Below are positions 24,420 through 36,768 of a stretch of DNA of 64,000 nt, piece after piece. Made by a program: the position numbers and the translations under genes. The notes beneath the pieces were generated by a model that was given only the letters and a program-made list of their open reading frames with translations, did no database searches and had not been told where the DNA came from. Each line of letters opens with the position of its first letter. The first letter of the stretch is position 1. Where the stretch lies: the NCBI GenBank assembly GCA_944324485.1, contig CALUWM010000005.1:1-64000 (forward strand), in the 5' to 3' direction. Source of the DNA: Candidatus Gastranaerophilales bacterium (lineage in GTDB: Bacteria; Cyanobacteriota; Vampirovibrionia; Gastranaerophilales; Gastranaerophilaceae).

Positions 24420-26354
24420 TTATTCTAAAAAAATCTTATAAATAGGTAATATTGAAGTATTGATTTTTTTAATATTTTCTTTTTTGGAGTACTTTATTTT
24501 TGAATTTATACATATTTCAGGTAAATATAAAACAATTTTTTCTGTTTTAGGGTTATATTTTTTTATTTCTTTTACGTATTCTTTGATTAAATTTTTGTCT
24601 TCTCTTGTTCCTAAGTTAGATATTATCACTCTGTCTTTTGGCATTTCGGGATAATATTTTAAGTATGCGTTTGTATCAGGGATAATAAAATAAACGTTTT
24701 CATATTTATAATTTTTGTAATCTTGAATAGAATATTTAATAAGGTTGTCTATATTAGAAAATAGATTATAATTTTCGTATTTTGGCATATTGATAGAAAA
24801 TAAAAGAATAATTAGCCAAGTAAATTTTATTTTATATTTAATATTTATTAAAATTGCTGTATTTATAATTAAAAGCGGTAAAAATATACAAAAGTATCTT
24901 TCAAATAAAATCGGTTTTATTGTTAATGAAATTATATATGAGGCAATAAAAACAAACGATATTGAAATTATATTGTATATAAAAATTTTGCCTTCGAATT
25001 TATTTTTAAGGTGTTTGTTATAGATAAATATACAAAAAGCTACTGTACAAATCAAAAATAAAATATTTCCAAAATAAAAAATTACATGATTATATAAAAC
25101 TGTTAAATCGGGTTTTTCTAGCCAAGTGTTAAAATTTTTTTCAAATGAATGTAATATCATTGTGCTTTGCAGATACGGAAGGAAAGTTGAAAAGGCAAGA
25201 ATATTTAAAATTGTGAATTTAATTTTTTTATTTTTTAAAATAAAGAATCCTAAAATAAAGTTAAATAAAGCAAATAAAAGAGTGTAATAATGTGTATTTA
25301 TAAGTAAAATTGTAAAAAGAACATATAAAGCACAGTTTTTATAGCTAAAATCTTTTTTAATGTTTAGCAGGCTATATCCTCCCCATAAAATCAGGCTCAT
25401 TGATAATATGTAACTTCTGATTTCATTTGATTCTACTATTATAAAAATGTTTATCGCACTTAAAAAAGCTGCAACAAGTGCTGTTTTTTTGTTTATTACT
25501 TTATTTGTTATAAAATAAATGCTTCCTATTTGTATAAGCCCTAAAATTAAAGGTAAAAATCGAATTTGAATAATTGATGAGTTAAATTTTGTAAGCCAAA
25601 TATTAGATAATATAAAAAATAAAGGCGGATTTCCTGGGTCCATTATTGTTCTTTTTAAATTTAAAGTCCCATTTGAAATATTGCAAATGGTGTATAATTC
25701 ATCATTCCATAATGGTATAAAATCTATGTGTGATAATCTTAATAAAAATCCGAGAGATATTATTAAAAATATAGGTAGGATTTTTAAACTAAAATTATAG
25801 TTGAATTTATTTTTACTAAGATAGATGATAATTAAAATATAGCTAAAAATATAAAAATACCAATTATAGAATATGCTTTCTATATATATGGACATTTTTT
25901 GAAGAAGATTTTTGTGCACTATTTTAAAAGGTATTTTATAACTTGTATATTCTTCATTTTGAAATTCTATTTTTGATTTTATAGTTTCATTTATTGAATA
26001 GTATCCAAAATTTTTTTCACAAAATACTGTAATAGACTGTATATTTTTAGTTAAAGATTCATCTTTAAAAATTAATTCTATGTCATCTATTTCTCCATTA
26101 TAAAAAAGAGGGTTTGTTTGATTTAATTTATAGGTATAAATTCCTTTTTCAAGGTTCATTTTGTTGCAATTTTGATTAAAGCAAACATATAGATTTGAGA
26201 TATGACTATTGTTTTTTGTTTCTACATTGATCGATATCTTATTCAAATCATTTTGAAAATAAAATATGCTAACATAATGTCTTAATGGAAATAAGACTAA
26301 TATAAACAAAATTATTGAAATTATTATAAGATTATTTTTAAAAAAATTATTCAT
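24420..26354 (-). CDS. GT-C membrane glycosyltransferase (family 39-like), copy A
   Basis: A 644-residue polytopic protein with about 11-12 membrane helices. After an unusual N-terminal extracytoplasmic domain of about 130 residues (between helix 1 and helix 2), the GT-C core starts near 200. It carries PLWNDELYTI, the acidic pair expected for the catalytic first loop, and then MDPGNPPLFFIL. The family uses lipid-phosphate sugars (ArnT, PMT type). Donor and acceptor are unknown. It is a diverged paralogue of the gene at 27095-29143; the two flank a phosphoesterase, whose 3' end it overlaps by eight bases. Confidence 0.78.
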   Translation of the reverse strand: MNNFFKNNLIIISIILFILVLFPLRHYVSIFYFQNDLNKISINVETKNNSHISNLYVCFNQNCNKMNLEKGIYTYKLNQTNPLFYNGEIDDIELIFKDESLTKNIQSITVFCEKNFGYYSINETIKSKIEFQNEEYTSYKIPFKIVHKNLLQKMSIYIESIFYNWYFYIFSYILIIIYLSKNKFNYNFSLKILPIFLIISLGFLLRLSHIDFIPLWNDELYTICNISNGTLNLKRTIMDPGNPPLFFILSNIWLTKFNSSIIQIRFLPLILGLIQIGSIYFITNKVINKKTALVAAFLSAINIFIIVESNEIRSYILSMSLILWGGYSLLNIKKDFSYKNCALYVLFTILLINTHYYTLLFALFNFILGFFILKNKKIKFTILNILAFSTFLPYLQSTMILHSFEKNFNTWLEKPDLTVLYNHVIFYFGNILFLICTVAFCIFIYNKHLKNKFEGKIFIYNIISISFVFIASYIISLTIKPILFERYFCIFLPLLIINTAILINIKYKIKFTWLIILLFSINMPKYENYNLFSNIDNLIKYSIQDYKNYKYENVYFIIPDTNAYLKYYPEMPKDRVIISNLGTREDKNLIKEYVKEIKKYNPKTEKIVLYLPEICINSKIKYSKKENIKKINTSILPIYKIFLE

Positions 26355-27084
26355 TTATAAACATTCTTGCTAAGTCTTCGCAATGTTTAAAGCCTCTTGA
26401 TAGAATATGATTAGAAGCTATATTATTGTCGTATTTAACTATTTTATGTTCGACAAAAAATTTACCGTTTTTGTCAACTGTAAGTTGTAAATATACGGGC
26501 ATTTTGTCTTTTGTCATTGAACGACCTACTGAGCCAACATTTATTACTGTTTTTCCGTTTGATAAACTATAACCGCAGGGAATATGTGTATGACCACATA
26601 AAATTAAATCTGCTTTTGAATTTTGTGTCATTTCTAAAATTGTATTATCTGTCAATTCCGGATAGATATTTTCGTTTTGGCTTCTTGGAGAACCGTGTAC
26701 AAGTTGAATTTTAAGCCCATTAATTTCTATATACTTGTTTTCAGGGAGATTTCTTACGAAATCAATGTATTCTTGCTTTGTTATTTTTACATCTTCTTCA
26801 AGAGAATAACCCATACAAGGAAAAGCTTCTTTTGTTCTTTTGATTAAATCTTTATTGCAATTAGCAATCATTTTGTCTGTGTTGCCTTGTATGATTTCAA
26901 AATCTTCTTTCATGCTTTCTTTTAGTTCTGTTATTTTTTTGCATATGTAATTTGGGTTATATCCTGCAAGAATTATATCTCCAAGGCAAAATATTTTATC
27001 TGGTTTGAATTTGTCTATATCTTCCATAACTTTGTCGAAGGCATCTTGATTTCCGTGAATATCTGAAATAATTGCTATTTTCAT
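26347..27084 (-). CDS. Calcineurin-like phosphoesterase (YfcE-type)
   Basis: A 245-residue cytoplasmic metallophosphoesterase. Metal-site motifs in order: ISDIHGNQDAF, CLGDIILAGYNP, IQGNTDK, LVHGSPRS, CGHTHIP and INVGSVGRS. The family includes YfcE-like phosphodiesterases; the physiological substrate is open. It sits between two GT-C transferases with an eight-base overlap to the downstream one and a ten-base gap from the upstream one, so a role tied to sugar-phosphate lipid turnover is possible (inference from position). AGGAGA precedes the ATG. Confidence 0.85.
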   Translation of the reverse strand: MKIAIISDIHGNQDAFDKVMEDIDKFKPDKIFCLGDIILAGYNPNYICKKITELKESMKEDFEIIQGNTDKMIANCNKDLIKRTKEAFPCMGYSLEEDVKITKQEYIDFVRNLPENKYIEINGLKIQLVHGSPRSQNENIYPELTDNTILEMTQNSKADLILCGHTHIPCGYSLSNGKTVINVGSVGRSMTKDKMPVYLQLTVDKNGKFFVEHKIVKYDNNIASNHILSRGFKHCEDLARMFINE

Positions 27085-27094
27085 AAAAAATCTC

Positions 27095-29143
27095 CTATTT
27101 ATTGTATATTAGTTTTAAATTTCTGATTGAATTTGTTTGATAAACTCTTGCATTTGGGTTTAAAAAACTTATTTGGTTAATATCTGATGACATATCATGC
27201 AGATAAATAATGCCTTTATTTTTTATATAATCTTTTTTTATTATTGTTTTAACGTAATTCATTGAGTTTGTATCTACATAGTGCCAGATTATTTTTTTAT
27301 TTTGTTTGAGGGACGGGAAATTATCTAAATATTTTTTAGAATCATTTGTAATGCAATGAATTTCAAATTCATTAGTGTATTGAGCGGAGTCTTTTTCAAC
27401 AAAGTTCATAAAATCGTTTAATACATATATTTCTCTAAGGCACATTGGTTTTGTGATTGAAATAAATAAGAAAAATATAAGAATTTGTATTATGGTTTTT
27501 ATTGTTTTGAATTTTTTAATTTCCGTTATTCCTAGTATAATAACGCATTCAAATAAAAATAGAAGACCATAACAAGATAAAAGCAGTCTTTTGTGTAGTA
27601 TTGGTTTTATAAAAATTGAAGTTAATGATGTAAATAAAATTATAAAAACTATGGAAAAAAATAAATATAAAAAGAGCTCCTTTTTGTAATTGTTTAATTT
27701 TGGTTTTTTAAAGAAATGGTTTATTAGTATTATGCTTAAATATATTATTGTTATTAAAGTTATTAGAATAAAGATATATTTATTATTAAAATATTCATTA
27801 ATTATATAGATAAATGTGCTAGGTGTTAATTTTTCTATCCAGCTGTTAAATGAATTTGAAAGGGAATTTTTAAGTGTAAATACTAAATATGGAACAAATG
27901 TTATAAAAATAATAATATTAGAGAGTATAAAATTTAAAATTTGTTTTTTTGAATGTGATTTGATTAATTTATAATTTCCCCAAATAAAATTATATAAGGT
28001 AAAAAATACCATATAATAATGTAGGTTTATTGTAAAAATTGAACAGATTGTATAGTGTAAAAGATTTTTAGTGTTTTGATTTTTTAAATATTTAAATAAA
28101 AGATAAATACAAAAAACGCTAAAAGTTATACATAGTGAATAAGTCCTTGCTTCTTGTGAATGATAAATGCTAACTAGGTTAATAGAGGCAAAAAACATCA
28201 TAAACAATGAAGATCTTTCATCCATTTCTTTAAAGATTAAATATACTGCGTATGGAAAAATAATACCTGATAATAATGGGATTAATCTTAAAGAAAAGTT
28301 GCTAATACCTGTAACTTTTGTTATAAGAAATTCTAATAGATAAAACATTGGCGGATTTCCAGGGTCGCAAAAACATGATTTTATTGTTGTTATTGCAGTT
28401 GTTTTTGTATAGATTTCATCCAGCCAAAGTGGGAAATATGTAATTTCATTAATCCTTAAAATGATATTAAGGATTATAATTAATGTAAATAACAAACTAA
28501 AATTTTTAGCTTTAATTGAGAAGTTGAAATTATTTTTATTAAAAATGTACAGACAAAAGGCAACAAAAAGCCAAAAATAAGGAATGATAAAAATTTTAAA
28601 ATTGTAGAAAAGGGATAAAAATAAAATGCAAAAATGGTTTAAATATCCCTTATAATTTGTTTGAAAAGGTATCTTAAGAGCTGTATATTCATTTGTTGAA
28701 TTTTCAAGGGTGATTTTTAAGTTGGTTTTTTTGAATTTTAGAATGTCTTTGTTGTTAAAATATTTGCTTTTTGTACCGTTATGCAAATCAATCATTTTGA
28801 TGTTTTTATCGAGATTTTCATTTTTAGGATATGCAAGGTAAATATTTTTTATTTTGGAATTAAAGAAACTTTCTGTATTTTCATCGTATTTAATTGAATA
28901 TACATTTAAAAAGTTATCTTTTTCAAATGTTGAACAAAAATCATTGAAACAAATTAACGGATTTGCATTTGTTTTTTGTTTAAATTCAAGGTTTACGGTT
29001 ATGTTTTCAAGGGGGTAATTAAATCCTTTTATATTAAAGTGGTAAGGATATGACTTGAATATGTTAAAAATTGATAGAACAGAAAAAAATATTAAAGTCC
29101 AAAATGCAATTTTTATAATTGAAGGTTTTGTTTTTTTATTCAT
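27095..29143 (-). CDS. GT-C membrane glycosyltransferase (family 39-like), copy B
   Basis: A 682-residue paralogue of the 644-residue transferase downstream. A first helix (about 12-27), an extracytoplasmic segment of about 150 residues and roughly 11 further helices form the same layout. PLWLDEIYTK and CDPGNPPMFYLLEF correspond to the catalytic-loop motifs of copy A. The N-terminal extracytoplasmic domain has paired cysteines (CFNDFCSTF), as copy A does (CFNQNCNKM), probably a disulfide. Sugar and acceptor are unknown. First gene of the three-gene run. Confidence 0.78.
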   Translation of the reverse strand: MNKKTKPSIIKIAFWTLIFFSVLSIFNIFKSYPYHFNIKGFNYPLENITVNLEFKQKTNANPLICFNDFCSTFEKDNFLNVYSIKYDENTESFFNSKIKNIYLAYPKNENLDKNIKMIDLHNGTKSKYFNNKDILKFKKTNLKITLENSTNEYTALKIPFQTNYKGYLNHFCILFLSLFYNFKIFIIPYFWLFVAFCLYIFNKNNFNFSIKAKNFSLLFTLIIILNIILRINEITYFPLWLDEIYTKTTAITTIKSCFCDPGNPPMFYLLEFLITKVTGISNFSLRLIPLLSGIIFPYAVYLIFKEMDERSSLFMMFFASINLVSIYHSQEARTYSLCITFSVFCIYLLFKYLKNQNTKNLLHYTICSIFTINLHYYMVFFTLYNFIWGNYKLIKSHSKKQILNFILSNIIIFITFVPYLVFTLKNSLSNSFNSWIEKLTPSTFIYIINEYFNNKYIFILITLITIIYLSIILINHFFKKPKLNNYKKELFLYLFFSIVFIILFTSLTSIFIKPILHKRLLLSCYGLLFLFECVIILGITEIKKFKTIKTIIQILIFFLFISITKPMCLREIYVLNDFMNFVEKDSAQYTNEFEIHCITNDSKKYLDNFPSLKQNKKIIWHYVDTNSMNYVKTIIKKDYIKNKGIIYLHDMSSDINQISFLNPNARVYQTNSIRNLKLIYNK

Positions 29144-29216: not shown

Positions 29217-30269
29217 ATGGAAAAGATTAAAATAAAAATTGGGGATGTTGAAATTGGTGGCGGATCGGCAGTTTCAATTCAGTCTATGACAAATACCAAA
29301 ACTGATGACACAAAAGCTACGCTAAAGCAGATTGAAGATTTATATAATGAAGGTTGTCAAATTGTTAGGGTTGCTGTATTAAACAAAAATTGTGCAAATG
29401 CGTTGGGTGAAATTGTTAAATATTCTCCTATTCCTGTTGTAGCAGATATTCATTTTGATTATAGACTTGCTTTGATTGCTATGGATAAGGGTATTGATGC
29501 TTTAAGACTTAACCCCGGAAATATAGGTTCTATTGAACATACTAAAAAAGTTGTCGAGGTTGCAAAATCTACATTTACTCCAATAAGAATCGGAGTTAAC
29601 GCTGGTTCGTTAGAAAAAGATTTATATGAAAATAAAGAGTTGCCGTTAGAAGAAAAAATGGTAATTTCTGCACAGCGACATATTGATATACTTGAAAAAC
29701 TTGATTTTCATTTAATAAAAGTGTCTTTAAAATCTTCTGATGTAATGACTACAATTAGAGCATATAGAAAAATGTATGAAATATCCCCTTATCCTTTGCA
29801 TGTGGGTTTGACGGAATCAGGAACTTTAAGAGGCGGAATTGTTAAGTCGTCAATAGGTATAGGCACGCTTTTAGCTGAAGGAATTGGAGATACAATAAGA
29901 GTTTCATTAACCGAAGATCCTATTGAAGAAGTTAAACTAGCCAAACAAATTTTAAAAACTCTAGGTTTAAGAAAAGGTGGAGTTAATTTTATATCATGTC
30001 CTACTTGCGGAAGGACGCAAATTGATTTAATAGGATTGGCAAAAAAGGTTGAAGAAAAATTCTCTGATTTAAATGCTGATATTACAATTGCTACAATGGG
30101 ATGTCCTGTTAATGGTCCCAAAGAAGCTGCTGGCGCTGATTATGGAATTGCAGGAGCTATTGGAGAAGGGTATATTTTTAAAAAAGGGCAAATGATTAAA
30201 AAAGTTTCTCAAGAACTTTTGTTAGATGAATTAGAAAAAGTTATTAAGTCAGATTTAAATATTTCTTAA
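29217..30269 (+). CDS. ispG: (E)-4-hydroxy-3-methylbut-2-enyl-diphosphate synthase
   Basis: The penultimate enzyme of the MEP isoprenoid pathway, converting MEcPP to HMBPP with a 4Fe-4S cluster. The TIM-barrel part has GGGSAVSIQSMTNTKT, VADIHFDYRLA and RLNPGNIG. Cluster ligands are the two cysteines of SCPTCGRTQIDL and the one in MGCPVNGPKEA. Length 350 matches the short bacterial form. An extended -10 TGGTATGAT lies at 29170-29178, and AGAGG is about 14 bases before the ATG, rather far for a ribosome site. Confidence 0.95.
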   Translation: MEKIKIKIGDVEIGGGSAVSIQSMTNTKTDDTKATLKQIEDLYNEGCQIVRVAVLNKNCANALGEIVKYSPIPVVADIHFDYRLALIAMDKGIDALRLNPGNIGSIEHTKKVVEVAKSTFTPIRIGVNAGSLEKDLYENKELPLEEKMVISAQRHIDILEKLDFHLIKVSLKSSDVMTTIRAYRKMYEISPYPLHVGLTESGTLRGGIVKSSIGIGTLLAEGIGDTIRVSLTEDPIEEVKLAKQILKTLGLRKGGVNFISCPTCGRTQIDLIGLAKKVEEKFSDLNADITIATMGCPVNGPKEAAGADYGIAGAIGEGYIFKKGQMIKKVSQELLLDELEKVIKSDLNIS

Positions 30270-30342: not shown

Positions 30343-30714
30343 ATGAAGAAATTATCAATTTTATTTGGAGTTTTATTTATAAGTTCACTTGCTTCTTTTG
30401 CTTATCTGGATGAAAGCGCAACAAGTGAAGTTGATACATTAAGAGCTCAAGGTTTTAGCGAGAGCATGTTACAGGTTGCTGATTTTGTAAATGAAAAAAA
30501 TAAAGGTATAAGCGGTAATTATGAACGCCGTTTTAAACCGGTAAAGCACACAGGAAAAATGGGTGCATATTCTAAAGTAAAAGTATATTTTGATCCTATT
30601 CAGGATGATGGAAAATTTGGCGAACATCAAATAAATTTTACAAATACCTGGATGGGTGAGCCAAATTGGTATTCTTCTCAATTAAAAGAAAGAGAAGTTG
30701 TTGAGAATTTATAA
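30343..30714 (+). CDS. Small secreted protein of unknown function
   Basis: A 123-residue protein with a clear signal peptide: MKK, a hydrophobic stretch to about residue 18, and a probable cut after SFA. The mature part of about 104 residues has no cysteine. It starts with an acidic segment (DESATSEVDTLRAQGF) and has a Lys/Arg-rich middle and an aromatic end (NTWMGEPNWYSSQ). I recognise no family. A promoter and an AGGGGA ribosome site point to an independent gene. It overlaps the convergent NuoN-like gene by six bases. Confidence 0.7.
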   Translation: MKKLSILFGVLFISSLASFAYLDESATSEVDTLRAQGFSESMLQVADFVNEKNKGISGNYERRFKPVKHTGKMGAYSKVKVYFDPIQDDGKFGEHQINFTNTWMGEPNWYSSQLKEREVVENL

Positions 30715-32115
30715 AATAAGACTTGTTATTAAAAATATTAAAATTACAACTGGAACAACGTAGTTTGGCGTTGTTCTTTTTGTATATTTTTCTTTTATTT
30801 TTTTGAAATTAAAACTGTAAATATTCTGAATTATTTTTAGTGAATTTAATAGTACTAAAATATAACAAACGATAATGGTAATTACTGTAATAAAAGATAG
30901 TTTGTCATAAATATAAACATTGTGTAGTATTTCAATACTGTATTTTAAAATACCGTTTGGAACGATTCCAACAAGCATTAAAATAAGTGTTGAAAAAAGT
31001 ACTGCAAAAAGTCTGTTGTTGAAAAATATTCCTTTTATCGCAGCTATATTTATTTTTTCTGTTTTTGAATTTATTTTAACAATGGATAAAAGGGAATATA
31101 ATCCTAAAAAGCAAAATGCAATAAGTGTTGAATATTTTATACTTTGGTCATTTGTTGATAAAAACATTATATTTAAAAGACAAAAGCAGGTTAGAAAGTA
31201 ATTTGTGTTAGCTAAAAATTTTATTAAGTTTTTTTGTTTTGATGCTGTTATGCCAAAATATAATGTGGTAATTGTTAGAAAAGTAATTAATGTTATTTGG
31301 CAAATTTCATCACTGTAACTTATAAAATTACTTATTTTGTTAAAAGTTAAAACTCCAATCCAAGGTAAAAAGCAAAATAAGAGTATGGAATATGGTATAT
31401 TGTCTTTGTAATTTTTGTTAATGAGGTAATTAACAAAAGGAAAAATGCCAATTTTTAGAAAAATTGCAAGTGCCATACATAAGTGAATAATGTTTAATTG
31501 GATACTGTCTTTTATAAATAGGGTCAAGATAAAAAATGCAAAAAACAATATGCTTGCACAAGTTCCTATTGCAACAAAGTCTGAAGAATAAATTTCGTTT
31601 TTTCTTATTCTCATATTTGATGCATATTTGTAAATAAAAATTGTTGTTAAATCAAGCAATAGGTACATTAAAATTAAATTTTGACTTTGAATTAAAAGAA
31701 AAACACTAAGTGTAATTAAAAGTAATATTGAATTTATAATAGGTGTTTTAAAGCGTGCTTTTCGAGTTAATTTGTATGATGAGGTCATAAAAATAATCAT
31801 AAAAACGCTTACTAATAATTTTATGATTAGTTCTGTTTTGTTTAAGGTTACTATATTATTTAAAATTGAAAGATTTAATTCATTTATAAAAAAAGAGTTT
31901 TTAATAAAAATAGATGAAATGATAATGGTATTTAAAATAAAGATTGAACAAGTTATAAAATCTGATATTCTTTTTACATTGAGCTTTCTTTTGAAAAACA
32001 AAAAGAAGAAAATGTTTAATATTATACCTAGAATTAAAAAGAGTTCACTTGAACAATATGCAATTATTTCTGATATTTCAGGTTTTATGTTTAAATTTAA
32101 TAGCAGATTTTCCAT
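30709..32115 (-). CDS. NuoN-like antiporter-type membrane subunit
   Basis: A 468-residue protein of about 13-14 membrane helices. SSELFLILGIILNI near the N terminus and the helix MALAIFLKIGIFPFVNYL match the NuoN pattern (PExxL, and the Lys followed by PFH in the proton channel). The channel lysine appears kept while the following His is Val. LMYLLLDLTTIFIY keeps an acidic residue (Asp) where NuoN has the channel Glu. It is last in an L-M-N ordered trio with no other complex I gene nearby. Assignment rests on by-eye alignment; Mrp or hydrogenase membrane subunits are alternatives. Confidence 0.62.
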   Translation of the reverse strand: MENLLLNLNIKPEISEIIAYCSSELFLILGIILNIFFFLFFKRKLNVKRISDFITCSIFILNTIIISSIFIKNSFFINELNLSILNNIVTLNKTELIIKLLVSVFMIIFMTSSYKLTRKARFKTPIINSILLLITLSVFLLIQSQNLILMYLLLDLTTIFIYKYASNMRIRKNEIYSSDFVAIGTCASILFFAFFILTLFIKDSIQLNIIHLCMALAIFLKIGIFPFVNYLINKNYKDNIPYSILLFCFLPWIGVLTFNKISNFISYSDEICQITLITFLTITTLYFGITASKQKNLIKFLANTNYFLTCFCLLNIMFLSTNDQSIKYSTLIAFCFLGLYSLLSIVKINSKTEKINIAAIKGIFFNNRLFAVLFSTLILMLVGIVPNGILKYSIEILHNVYIYDKLSFITVITIIVCYILVLLNSLKIIQNIYSFNFKKIKEKYTKRTTPNYVVPVVILIFLITSLIL

Positions 32116-32118
32116 TTT

Positions 32119-33537
32119 TTAAAAACTCCCGTTAAAAAAATATTGTGGATATATCCCTAAGATTATTATTGCTATTGTTAGTATTAAAGCTGTTATGGTT
32201 TGATGGTTTGCAAGTTTTATTTCATTTTTTAGTGTATTTTGAGGCTCTATAAGTACTTTATTAAATATATTTAAAGCACAAACTGAAATTGCAAACGAAC
32301 CAAATACCAGTATATATGGAATTATTTGCATGATAATTTCGTCATAGTCTACTGAAAAAATCATTATAAAATTAAAAAGATTTGATGTAAAAAGAGCAAG
32401 CGGAGGAATTTTGATAAGATTTAACAGAGTAAGTATGATAAATAATTTCAATATTTTGCTTTTTGAAGGTATTTTATAAATATCTTCAATTTTGTCGCTT
32501 TTAAACTTATTAATAAGTATTGCAAATATTGTTAATAAGAATAAGTATGATATCAAGGTTGTGATTGTGCTGTATAGATATGCTTGAATTCCTTTTTCTT
32601 CAAATGAAAACAAAGCAAAAATATTGATTATTATAAAAACAGGTAGTGTTGAATTGAAAATTTTAATAAGACTATCTTGCCTAAAGGATAGTATTATAAA
32701 CCAGATGAAGTTTATAAGTAAAAATATTATAATGTATTGTTCAAGATTATAGAATAAATAATCAAAAGCAATAAATGTTTTATATAAAAGTATGTTTCCG
32801 ATTGTAAAATTTGTTATAATGTTTATGTTTGATATTAACGGATTTGAAGATATTATATTTTTATCAAAAGGAATAAAATTAAAGAATTTGAATATCAGCA
32901 AAAGAAAACCTAAAAATCCTATTAGAGCTGATGTGTTATTAATGTGATAAAGATTTTCTTGGATATTAGAATAATTAAATGGTGTTTGGTTTAGAATAAA
33001 TAATCTTGCAAAATCGTAAAAAATTAATATAGAACAAAAAGCAAGAAGTGTAATGTTTTTGCTTAATTTATATAAAAGCTTATTTTTATTTTTTTTGTCG
33101 TAGTTTGAATTGAGTAAAAAACAAATAAGAAAAATCCAAAAGATGCTTCCAAAAATTATTGTTATATTATCAAAAAGAATAATGCTGTTAAGTAATCCAA
33201 ACAATAAAAATAATACACAGCTAAATAATTTTTGAGATTTTTGAATAAAGGTTTTTGAAATGATTGAAAAAATTAAAAATATAAATGCGTTTATAAATAT
33301 AAAGATTGATGAAAATTTATTTAAAATTACATTTATTTTAAAAATATTAAAATTTGTGTACTCTAATCCCGTGAGTATAATAAAAGCAAATACAAATAAT
33401 ATAGAAAAAATTGTTTTTGTGATTCTTCTTATGTAAATCGGATTTTTTATAAATGAGAAAATGCCGAATAAAAAGGCGAAGATAAACGGAATAATTATGT
33501 ATATATCAAGAAGAATATTATTATAATTTTCTAGCAT
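32119..33537 (-). CDS. NuoM-like antiporter-type membrane subunit
   Basis: A 472-residue protein of about 13-14 helices. The segment GFLGFLLLIFKFFNFIPFDKN aligns with the NuoM motif containing the channel lysine and PLHxWLPDAH; the Lys is kept, but His is replaced by Asp and the WLPDAH part is lost. I find no acidic residue in the helix that should carry the channel Glu (TIIFGSIFWIFLICF). It overlaps the NuoL-like gene before it by seven bases and is three bases from the NuoN-like gene after it. A diverged or repurposed ion-translocating subunit is my reading. Confidence 0.58.
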   Translation of the reverse strand: MLENYNNILLDIYIIIPFIFAFLFGIFSFIKNPIYIRRITKTIFSILFVFAFIILTGLEYTNFNIFKINVILNKFSSIFIFINAFIFLIFSIISKTFIQKSQKLFSCVLFLLFGLLNSIILFDNITIIFGSIFWIFLICFLLNSNYDKKNKNKLLYKLSKNITLLAFCSILIFYDFARLFILNQTPFNYSNIQENLYHINNTSALIGFLGFLLLIFKFFNFIPFDKNIISSNPLISNINIITNFTIGNILLYKTFIAFDYLFYNLEQYIIIFLLINFIWFIILSFRQDSLIKIFNSTLPVFIIINIFALFSFEEKGIQAYLYSTITTLISYLFLLTIFAILINKFKSDKIEDIYKIPSKSKILKLFIILTLLNLIKIPPLALFTSNLFNFIMIFSVDYDEIIMQIIPYILVFGSFAISVCALNIFNKVLIEPQNTLKNEIKLANHQTITALILTIAIIILGIYPQYFFNGSF

Positions 33538-34946
33538 TTATATCTCCCAAATAAGGCTGTAAAAATTGCTATGATGGCAAAAAACGCGAATATTATAAGT
33601 ATATTTCTTATATATTTTTTCTTTTCTTTTTGTTTTGTTTTTACGATAAATATTGTTGTAAAAATATCAAATAATTTTATTGGAAATAATGTAAAATTTT
33701 CTATTAGTTTTTCATCTATAAAACATATAAAGTGAGAAATTTTATTTGGTATTGTTTCAAAAAATAGAATATGAGTTTTTTCTAAAATAAAACCTTTGTT
33801 TTTTGAAATAAGCGCTGAATTTAAGTTTGTCTTATCTTTTATAAATAGAAATATTAGAATAAAAAGAATAAATAAAATTACTGAAAGATAGATGTATATA
33901 AATTCATTTTGTTTGAAAATTAGGTAAGTTACTATGAAAATTGAATTTAGTATAGAAATTATATGACCAAAGATTATTTTGTAATTTTTTTCAAAAAGTA
34001 TAAAGAACGCACTAATCGTTGCAGATAATATGCAAAATATAATTAAATATTCTTTCATATTATTAAGAAGATCAATAAAGCCAAGGCTTTTTATGAATAT
34101 GAATAATCCTAAAATGATATTTGAGGGTATTGTTGTTATATAGAAAATATTTGATGAATTTGCAAGAAAACTATTGTAACAACTAAGCGGAAATAAAAAC
34201 AATCTGCTCATAAAAGCTATGCAAAAACAAATTGCAATCAGCTGAAATTCGATTGAGCTGCTGATTCCATATGTGTAGCTTATTAAAATATTTAATTCAT
34301 TGTAATCTAAGCTTGAGGAATTTATGTAGCCTTCTGACAATATTGAATATTTAAAAAGCATTAAAATTCCTAGTAATAAGGAAAAATCACCAATAAAACT
34401 TATTCTTTGAAATCTTGTGATGTTGTAGCTTGTTGAATTTTTAAAAATATCGAAATATGCAAATAAGAAAATGATTATTCCTTCCAGCATAAAAAATATT
34501 AATGACTGAAATAAGTTAGGTGATACAAAAAACATATACGAATTGAATGCCAAGGCTGAAAGATAGATGTAAAATCTTTGTTTAGTGAATAAAAATTGCT
34601 TTTTTTTATCAAAGTATAATTTTGAATATATGCTTAAAATTGTAAAAACAAAGCAAGTAAATAAAAGGTAGATAATATTTTCAGGATTTATTGTAATTCC
34701 AAAGTCGAGAGTGATTTTATCATAGTTAAAAAAAGTATAGTTTAAATTAATCGGTGCATCTTCATTTATAAAAAGAGCTTTTTGTGTTGTGAAATATGCT
34801 AAACTTATTAAATTTATTATTATAGAACCATTGTTTAATAATTTTTTATTTACAAAAGATAGCCTGATTCTTGAAATCAAAAGATAAATTGCAAAGACAA
34901 TCGGAGCAAAAATAGCAAATAAACTAATTGAAACACTAATATCCAT
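33531..34946 (-). CDS. NuoL-like antiporter-type membrane subunit
   Basis: A 471-residue polytopic protein, first of the trio. FMLEGIIIFLFAYF followed by FQRISFIGDFSLLLGIL aligns with the NuoL region WEGVGLCSYLL then NRIGDxxxxLGI, keeping the channel Glu. Further on, FMSRLFLFPLSCY aligns with GKSAQxPLxxW, with Arg for Lys, and the downstream HAATMV histidine is gone. The C terminus has an amphipathic stretch and a last helix, but the protein is about 140 residues shorter than NuoL. A TATAAT lies nine bases before the ATG. Confidence 0.62.
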   Translation of the reverse strand: MDISVSISLFAIFAPIVFAIYLLISRIRLSFVNKKLLNNGSIIINLISLAYFTTQKALFINEDAPINLNYTFFNYDKITLDFGITINPENIIYLLFTCFVFTILSIYSKLYFDKKKQFLFTKQRFYIYLSALAFNSYMFFVSPNLFQSLIFFMLEGIIIFLFAYFDIFKNSTSYNITRFQRISFIGDFSLLLGILMLFKYSILSEGYINSSSLDYNELNILISYTYGISSSIEFQLIAICFCIAFMSRLFLFPLSCYNSFLANSSNIFYITTIPSNIILGLFIFIKSLGFIDLLNNMKEYLIIFCILSATISAFFILFEKNYKIIFGHIISILNSIFIVTYLIFKQNEFIYIYLSVILFILFILIFLFIKDKTNLNSALISKNKGFILEKTHILFFETIPNKISHFICFIDEKLIENFTLFPIKLFDIFTTIFIVKTKQKEKKKYIRNILIIFAFFAIIAIFTALFGRYKC

Positions 34947-34955
34947 ATTATCTTT

Positions 34956-34961
34956 ATTATA
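34956..34961 (-). promoter_or_regulatory. -10 element of the NuoLMN-like operon
   Basis: TATAAT on the minus strand, nine bases before the first ATG of the trio. The leader would be only a few bases long, with AAAGAT as a weak ribosome site. Confidence 0.45.
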
Positions 34962-35064
34962 TAGTTTTTGTTTTTAAAGGCAAATTTTTTTTAATATTAA
35001 GTTTATTTTAAAAATTTTTTGAGCTAAAATTTAGATAAATCAAATAAGGGAGTGAATTTATACT

Positions 35065-36768
35065 ATGAAAATGTCAAAATTATTTGTGCAAACGCTTCGC
35101 GAATTTCCTAATGATGCTGAAGCTATATCTCATAAATTATTAGTTAGAGCAGGATTTATTAAAAAACTTGCAAATGGTATATATACCTATATGCCTTTGG
35201 CGCAAAGAGTTTTGACAAAAATTTCAAACATCATAAGAGAAGAGATGAATATATCAGGTGCTCAAGAATTATTAATGCCTTTTGTTCAACCGGCGGAAGT
35301 TTGGCAAAAATCCGGCAGATGGCAAGTATATGGCAAAGAACTTTTAAGATGTAAAGATAGACACGATAACGATATGTGTTTAGCTCCTACTCATGAAGAA
35401 GTTATAACAAGTGTGGTATCTGATGTAATTAATTCATATAAACAACTTCCTTTAAATGTTTATCAAATTCAATCTAAATTTAGAGATGAAATAAGACCTC
35501 GTTTTGGCTTATTGAGGGGTCGTGAATTTATTATGAAAGATGCTTATTCTTTTCATACATCTCAAGAAGATTTGGAGCGTGAATATAAAGTTATGGCAAA
35601 AACATATACAAATATATTTAAACGTTGCGGCCTAGAAACAAAAGCTGTTCAGTCAGACTCAGGCGCTATTGGAGGATCGGTATCCCATGAATATATGGTC
35701 TTAACCGATACTGCAGTTGGTGAAAATGATGTATTTTATTGTGATAATTGTGATTATAGCGCAAATTCTAATCATGCAATTTCAATTTTACCAATTGAAG
35801 AAATTGACGGCGGTTTTTTAAAAGAAGAAATTGTTGATACTCCAAATGTTAAAACAATAGAAGATTTGGCAAAGTTTCTAAATGTTAATGAAAATTGCAT
35901 TTTAAAAGCAGTAGCTTATATTTATGATTCAAAACCTGCTCTTATAATGATTAGGGGTGATAAAGAAATTGAAGAAACAAAATTAATGAATGCCTTGAAT
36001 GCTCTTGAGATAAGACCTATGGAAGAAAATGAAGTTGTTGAATTTTTAGGTTCAAGTGCAGGATTTATTTCATATCGAGGAATTGATAAAACTAAAGTTA
36101 AGGTTTTATTTGATAATACAGCAAAAGGCATGAAAAACTTTGTTATCGGCGCAAATGAAAAAGATAAGCACATAGTTGGTGCAAATCTAGATGATAATAT
36201 TGAATTTGTTGATATTTCAGTGGTTAAAGAAGGTGAATATTGCCCTGTTTGCAAAAACCCTCTTAAGGTTACCAGAGGAATTGAAGTGGGTAATATTTTC
36301 CAATTGGGAACAAAATATTCTAAGCCGATGAATGCTTGTTATACTGATGCAGATGGTCAATTAAAGCCTTATATTATGGGTTGTTATGGTATAGGTGTTT
36401 CAAGAACAATGGCAGCAGCCATTGAAAAATATCATGATGACTTTGGTATTATTTGGCCAAAAGAAATAGCACCTTACCATGTTGATATTGTACCGGTTAA
36501 TGTAGAAGATGAACTTCAAGCTAAAGTTGCAGATGAACTTTATGAAAAATTATGCGCTCTTGGAATTGAAGTTGTGATTGATGATAGAAATGAAAGAGCT
36601 GGTGTAAAATTTAAAGATGCTGATTTAATTGGTTTTCCGATTAGAATAACAGTAGGCAAAACAATTTCAGAAGGTTTAGTTGAGTTTAAAACAAGAGAAA
36701 ACGGTGAAATGGTCAAAGTTCCCGTAAATGAAGCAATTGAAAAATGTCAAAAAATCCTCTTAAGCTAA
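35065..36768 (+). CDS. proS: Prolyl-tRNA synthetase, bacterial type
   Basis: A class II synthetase of 567 residues charging tRNA-Pro. It opens with KLFVQTLREFPNDAEAISHKLLVRAGFI. Motif 2 surrounds FRDEIRPRFGLLRGREFIMKD-type sequence and motif 3 is GCYGIGVSRTMAA. The editing insertion (about 225-390) is present, as in the long bacterial form. The C-terminal anticodon-binding domain includes GVKFKDADLIGFPIRITVG. AGGGAG lies 12 bases before the ATG; a second ATG six bases on is possible. It overlaps the next gene by 25 bases. Confidence 0.96.
   Translation: MKMSKLFVQTLREFPNDAEAISHKLLVRAGFIKKLANGIYTYMPLAQRVLTKISNIIREEMNISGAQELLMPFVQPAEVWQKSGRWQVYGKELLRCKDRHDNDMCLAPTHEEVITSVVSDVINSYKQLPLNVYQIQSKFRDEIRPRFGLLRGREFIMKDAYSFHTSQEDLEREYKVMAKTYTNIFKRCGLETKAVQSDSGAIGGSVSHEYMVLTDTAVGENDVFYCDNCDYSANSNHAISILPIEEIDGGFLKEEIVDTPNVKTIEDLAKFLNVNENCILKAVAYIYDSKPALIMIRGDKEIEETKLMNALNALEIRPMEENEVVEFLGSSAGFISYRGIDKTKVKVLFDNTAKGMKNFVIGANEKDKHIVGANLDDNIEFVDISVVKEGEYCPVCKNPLKVTRGIEVGNIFQLGTKYSKPMNACYTDADGQLKPYIMGCYGIGVSRTMAAAIEKYHDDFGIIWPKEIAPYHVDIVPVNVEDELQAKVADELYEKLCALGIEVVIDDRNERAGVKFKDADLIGFPIRITVGKTISEGLVEFKTRENGEMVKVPVNEAIEKCQKILLS

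Follow-up and report, generated by a model that had tools for sequence, protein, structure and literature searches.

Orphan NuoL-, NuoM- and NuoN-like genes in a Gastranaerophilaceae bacterium are the remainder of an eroded complex I operon kept under purifying selection

Coupling in complex I is usually discussed in terms of a two-arm machine whose membrane arm serves the redox arm. The locus analyzed here, within a window of 64,000 nucleotides at the start of a contig from a Candidatus Gastranaerophilales bacterium, a cyanobacterial relative of the gut, raises the question of what the antiporter-type subunits of this enzyme are when they stand alone. A preliminary description had noticed three consecutive genes in the order of nuoL, nuoM and nuoN, without companions and with part of their channel residues lost, and had proposed a reduced or repurposed ion-translocating module, possibly a novel membrane complex. 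Are these genes relics on the way to loss, a part of another complex, or a remnant with a role of its own?

The three open reading frames are intact and lie head to tail on the minus strand between positions 30709 and 34946, in the order L-M-N. They encode an L-like subunit of 471 residues (33531..34946), an M-like subunit of 472 residues (32119..33537) and an N-like subunit of 468 residues (30709..32115), in agreement with the three proteins of about 470 residues first described; of the overlaps reported between them, only that of L and M exists (7 bp), M and N being 3 bp apart. Each protein found its namesakes as best NCBIfam families, all of them far below the curated cut-offs: the NuoL/NdhF models for L (8e-10 to 2e-6), TIGR01972 for M (1e-7) and TIGR01770 for N (2e-10). 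Within the trio, the Pfam domain PF00361 was detected in the N-like protein alone, with a score just under its cut-off. Profile-profile alignment of the genus sequences with the subunits of full operons gave values of 9e-25 (L-L), 8e-27 (M-M) and 5e-22 (N-N), each profile matching its own namesake far better than the other two subunits. The AlphaFold2 model of the M-like protein (pLDDT 87, pTM 0.89) best matched solved NuoM/ND4/NdhD and MrpD chains, with top TM-scores of 0.78-0.86, and that of the L-like protein (pLDDT 79, pTM 0.77) best matched NdhF/NuoL chains of complex I; neither had its best match in an unrelated transporter fold. Taken together, the NCBIfam matches, the profile-profile alignments and the fold comparisons confirm that the trio consists of diverged NuoL, NuoM and NuoN. 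Upstream, a promoter-like TTGCCT-16-TATAAT (34956..34983, minus strand) ends 9 nt before the ATG of the nuoL-like gene, which is preceded by no Shine-Dalgarno site, and a TATATAA-type box lies a few bases 5' of the nuoL ATG in 12 of the 12 genus loci compared. Judged from this promoter-like sequence, the trio mRNA looks leaderless.

The description of the trio as an orphan holds for the whole host genome (1.72 Mb, 99.6% complete). The neighbors, as read, include no nuo, mrp or hydrogenase gene, and NuoA, NuoC and NuoI are absent at the site. Genome-wide, PF00361 matches are confined to the N-like gene and two subunits whose operon lies on contig C15 at about 26.7-33.9 kb (locus L004 6690-13929), and matches to PF01058, PF00346 and PF00146 to this same Ehr-like operon. 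No match to PF00499 (nuoJ), no match above cut-off to PF00420 (nuoK), no second nuoLMN set and no nuoB, nuoD, nuoH or nuoJ outside the Ehr-like operon were found in the genome. A full complex I encoded elsewhere was thus rejected, as the searches with these six families gave no match above cut-off outside that operon. The genes of the Ehr-like operon itself are those for a ferredoxin-type small subunit (Oxidored_q6 plus ferredoxin domains), a large subunit of the 49 kDa type, an NADHdh protein and a pair of antiporter-type subunits; on reading, the first motif of its large subunit is CGDS instead of the CxxC of hydrogenases, in line with the hydrogenase-like complex devoid of NiFe motifs reported for gut Melainabacteria (PMC3787301).

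The origin of the trio becomes apparent from its flanks. Upstream lies the divergent proS (35065..36768, plus strand), a flank fixed in genome G037, in genus g36 and in the trio genus. Downstream lie the convergent gene of a small conserved protein of 123 residues (30343..30714, plus strand), a fixed flank that also adjoins nuoN in full operons, and ispG (gcpE; 29217..30269, plus strand), the second downstream marker of the ancestral nuo site. About 50 nuo sites, in relatives whose genomes are mostly metagenome-assembled, were annotated with profiles made from full operons. Besides the full 11-gene operon, ABCDHIJKLMN, we found ABCDHJKLMN, without nuoI (G126); AHJKLMN (genera g9 and g17 and two g19 genomes); JKLMN (g23 and g36); JKL'MN, with an L shortened to 385-387 residues (g6, g20 and g33); and LMN (the trio genus, g1). 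In g37, proS is divergent from nuoA in G037, where all eleven nuo genes are present, and nuoN is followed by the small gene and then ispG in G067. Between proS on one side and the small gene and ispG on the other stand JKLMN in g36 and LMN in g1, and in G057, also of g1, nothing at all. Since the same flanks surround 11, 5, 3 or 0 nuo genes, the trio is what an ancestral operon for an 11-subunit complex I has left behind at its original site, and the suggestion of a novel complex of separate origin does not stand. The named relatives with the trio are for the most part metagenome-assembled genomes of Candidatus Gastranaerophilales, including one from goat caecum. An assembly artefact was rejected for most sites, where the remnants lie inside contigs with genes on either side; contigs end within the sites of G106 and G135, the latter of which was left out of the counts. 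In G126 (locus L062, 9936-11720), the operon is complete but for nuoI, missing between nuoH and nuoJ; many of its E-channel and proton-path residues are already gone, and it may be an intermediate.

How often has the electron-transfer arm been lost? Among 146 genomes of the family, nuoD was found in 32 (a count based on PF00346 E-values, the operon structure having been checked in 19 of them) and a membrane-only remnant, AHJKLMN, JKLMN or LMN, in 31. The reverse case, nuoD without membrane subunits, did not occur in the 146 genomes, as each of those with nuoD encodes three or more PF00361 proteins. In an rpoB tree with 49 genomes, parsimony required at least six state changes, and a single-clade origin of the remnants was rejected (p-AU 1.8e-16). 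Counting losses only, there would be six or seven (g23; g6, g20 and g33 as one; g19; g9 and g17, possibly together; g36; g1), the number being approximate as this is a quick, single-gene tree with several weakly supported forks. These results imply that the arm was probably lost independently six or seven times in the family.

The loss of genes is accompanied by a loss of channel residues. Across 17 full operons, L, M and N do not vary in their TM5 acid, TM7 Lys, TM8 His/Lys or TM12 charge, apart from a single TM8 change in N, so that the TM8 residue is kept in 17/17 L, 17/17 M and 16/17 N; at the 31 membrane-only sites it is kept in none of the L, one of the M and one of the N subunits. The basic TM7 residue, on the other hand, persists at these sites in 30 of 31 L, all 31 M (allowing a one-residue offset in the trio genus, in an inspected MAFFT alignment) and 25 of 31 N. 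Judged from these alignments, membrane-only remnants converge on the loss of the TM8 residue, the link between the proton half-channels. The trio has lost its TM8 and most of its TM12 residues; TM7 is basic in L, M and N alike at 14/14 loci, and N alone still has a TM5 acid at a consistent position. The complete TM5-TM7-TM8-TM12 proton path of complex I is lacking. Most of the residue assignments made at first sight were borne out: L has Arg at the TM7 Lys position and lacks the TM8 His; in M, TM7 is still basic, one residue out of register, and no TM5 Glu is present; N has the TM7 Lys (K221) and, at TM5, an Asp (D155); and W(L)PDA-type segments are absent from all three. The TM5 Glu said to be kept in L, in contrast, lies two residues out of register and varies between E, Q and T within the genus, and is not clearly a retained channel residue. 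As the trio has lost the TM8 and most of the TM12 residues of the canonical proton path, and almost all membrane-only relatives the TM8 residue, the term "ion-translocating" is also doubtful. In the g37 clade, channel decay preceded gene loss, as NuoM TM5 and TM12 and NuoN TM8 have already changed while the peripheral-arm genes are still there. The full 11-gene operon of G037 (locus L124) encodes a NuoM without the TM5 Glu, TM8 Lys and TM12 Glu.

NuoL has furthermore been deleted internally in three lineages independently, with ends that differ between them: approximately residues 290-550 (E. coli numbering) in g6, g20 and g33, 389-515 in g19 and 350-515 in g1. All three retain the C-terminal region. 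The L-like protein of the window keeps the lateral C-terminal helix and the last transmembrane helix, modeled as a 51-residue helix (387-437) and a final helix (443-466), both with low to moderate confidence, below that of the rest. As truncations at the end of E. coli NuoL make complex I fragile (PMC3274701), the retained C-terminus suggests selection for assembly.

The remnants are kept open under purifying selection. Between the window species and G107, omega was 0.110 for L, 0.121 for M and 0.123 for N, and 0.027-0.126 for six neighboring genes, values that are approximate as dS exceeds 1. The trio is open in 14 of the 14 genus loci compared (two of which, L128 and L135, are apparent duplicates of G084 and G127), and neutral simulation at comparable divergence produced a mean of 82 stops in the trio and an intact trio in 0 of 200 runs. 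A pseudogene reading was rejected on these grounds. Several neighboring genes evolve more slowly than the trio: ispG and the small gene are 88-90% identical, and L, M and N 75, 68 and 72%. JKL'MN is under tighter constraint than the trio, with omega 0.02-0.18 where estimable. The trio is nevertheless dispensable, as it is missing from the congeners G021 and G057.

An 11-subunit complex I has been described for gut Melainabacteria (PMC3787301). The trio shares with this NDH-1 type of Melainabacteria and Cyanobacteria, which has no NuoEFG, its operon position, gene order and L, M and N orthologs, but lacks all peripheral subunits as well as A, H, J and K, the TM8 and most TM12 proton-path residues, and an internal part of L. 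The Mrp cation/proton antiporter (MrpA-G) is likewise a redox-free set of antiporter-type subunits, and the M-like model matches MrpD; no MrpB, C, E, F or G-type gene was read beside the trio, however, the key TM8 and TM12 lysines are missing, and the trio groups with Nuo by both its sequence and its synteny, so that its identification as an Mrp antiporter was rejected. Ehr and group 4 [NiFe]-hydrogenase-related complexes also have antiporter-type subunits in common with the trio, whose site contains neither a hydrogenase-type large or small subunit nor a NuoH-like gene. The DAB2 (DabA/DabB) CO2 hydration complex, in which a complex I-type membrane subunit is used with a new partner (PMC13144422), is a precedent for such use, although the trio comprises three L/M/N orthologs, not one DabB, and has no DabA carbonic-anhydrase-like gene beside it, its neighbors being proS, the small protein and ispG.

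Which explanation accounts best for these observations? The one we prefer, with about an even chance of being right, is that the trio is a non-pumping, redox-free complex I remnant with a retained role, most likely an ion leak or exchange. An ancestral operon of the type without the NADH module eroded in place and lost its peripheral, electron-transferring arm and also its connecting membrane subunits, with the trio as the last stage. L, M and N most likely still assemble in the membrane, where the lateral C-terminal helix of L would brace M and N. Canonical proton pumping is presumably gone, given the loss of residues that join and complete the half-channels, and the trio would be kept for a positive, redox-independent function; the likeliest physical activity, which is a guess, might be that ions leak or are exchanged, slowly or under gating, through the TM5-TM7 half-channels that survive. 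What speaks against a working half-channel in L and M is the TM7 Arg of the former and the missing TM5 partner of both. A close rival is that the remnant conducts nothing and acts as a structural or regulatory assembly, kept to hold or dock a further protein or to give the membrane its shape. It would fit the convergent loss of proton-path residues while the bracing C-terminus of L and the sequence constraint persist, and the Mrp structure, in which proton routes follow TM8 and TM12 lysines and the TM5/TM7 pair is regulatory (PMC7419157). We nonetheless consider it unlikely: the basic TM7 residue kept in almost all remnants is hard to explain for a pure scaffold, and neighbor clustering returned no new partner gene that is conserved next to the remnants in different lineages. 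The sole candidate partner, a probable exported TPR-repeat protein encoded divergently just upstream of nuoA or nuoJ (L023, L039, L042 and others), was rejected, as its gene adjoins nuo operons in full and JKL'MN lineages alike.

Ranked third, and rather improbable, is the possibility that the genes of the trio are decaying under a constraint that is residual or waning, and are heading for complete loss with no new function. Its fast evolution, the loss of most channel residues, its absence from two congeners and the NuoM and NuoN residues already going in g37 with the full operon present would all be expected from decay. The frames open at every genus locus, omega values of about 0.11, the conserved promoter box and the conserved charged residues would not, nor would the nearly frozen JKL'MN, whose NuoM is about 95% identical within g33 at dS > 1. 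Even less credible, and in our view very improbable, is that the trio serves as an extra membrane module of the Ehr-like complex. All five trio-bearing genomes of the genus do have the Ehr-like operon and G021 lacks both, but G057 has Ehr without the trio, the Ehr operon carries its own two antiporter-type subunits, and dependence on Ehr is made unlikely by at least 13 membrane-only relatives without any PF01058 or PF00346 protein (G005, G072, G098, G118, G033, G064, G092, G112, G008, G046, G016, G023 and G081).

Membrane-only complex I remnants are apparently undescribed so far, as a search of freely accessible papers returned no published description. In this family, the membrane arm has repeatedly outlived the redox arm and the opposite was never seen; it remains selected even as its residue at the TM8 junction vanishes. 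The repeated loss of the redox half, with the membrane half intact and selected, suggests that the latter does a job without the enzyme. It is tempting to speculate, and we put this at slightly under an even chance, that within a single family of bacteria complex I became, at least six times, a redox-free membrane complex under selection, in which the antiporter-type subunits, once the electron-transfer arm was lost, acquired or turned out to have a function that depends neither on quinone reduction nor on the canonical proton path. The natural series of 11, 7, 5 and 3 genes, partly at one site, bears on what these subunits do alone, and would allow pumping residues to be told from those needed for folding or assembly.

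Elsewhere in the window (24420-29143), two related large membrane proteins of 644 and 682 residues, glycosyltransferase-like by eye, flank a metallophosphoesterase-like gene, and copy number differs among relatives.
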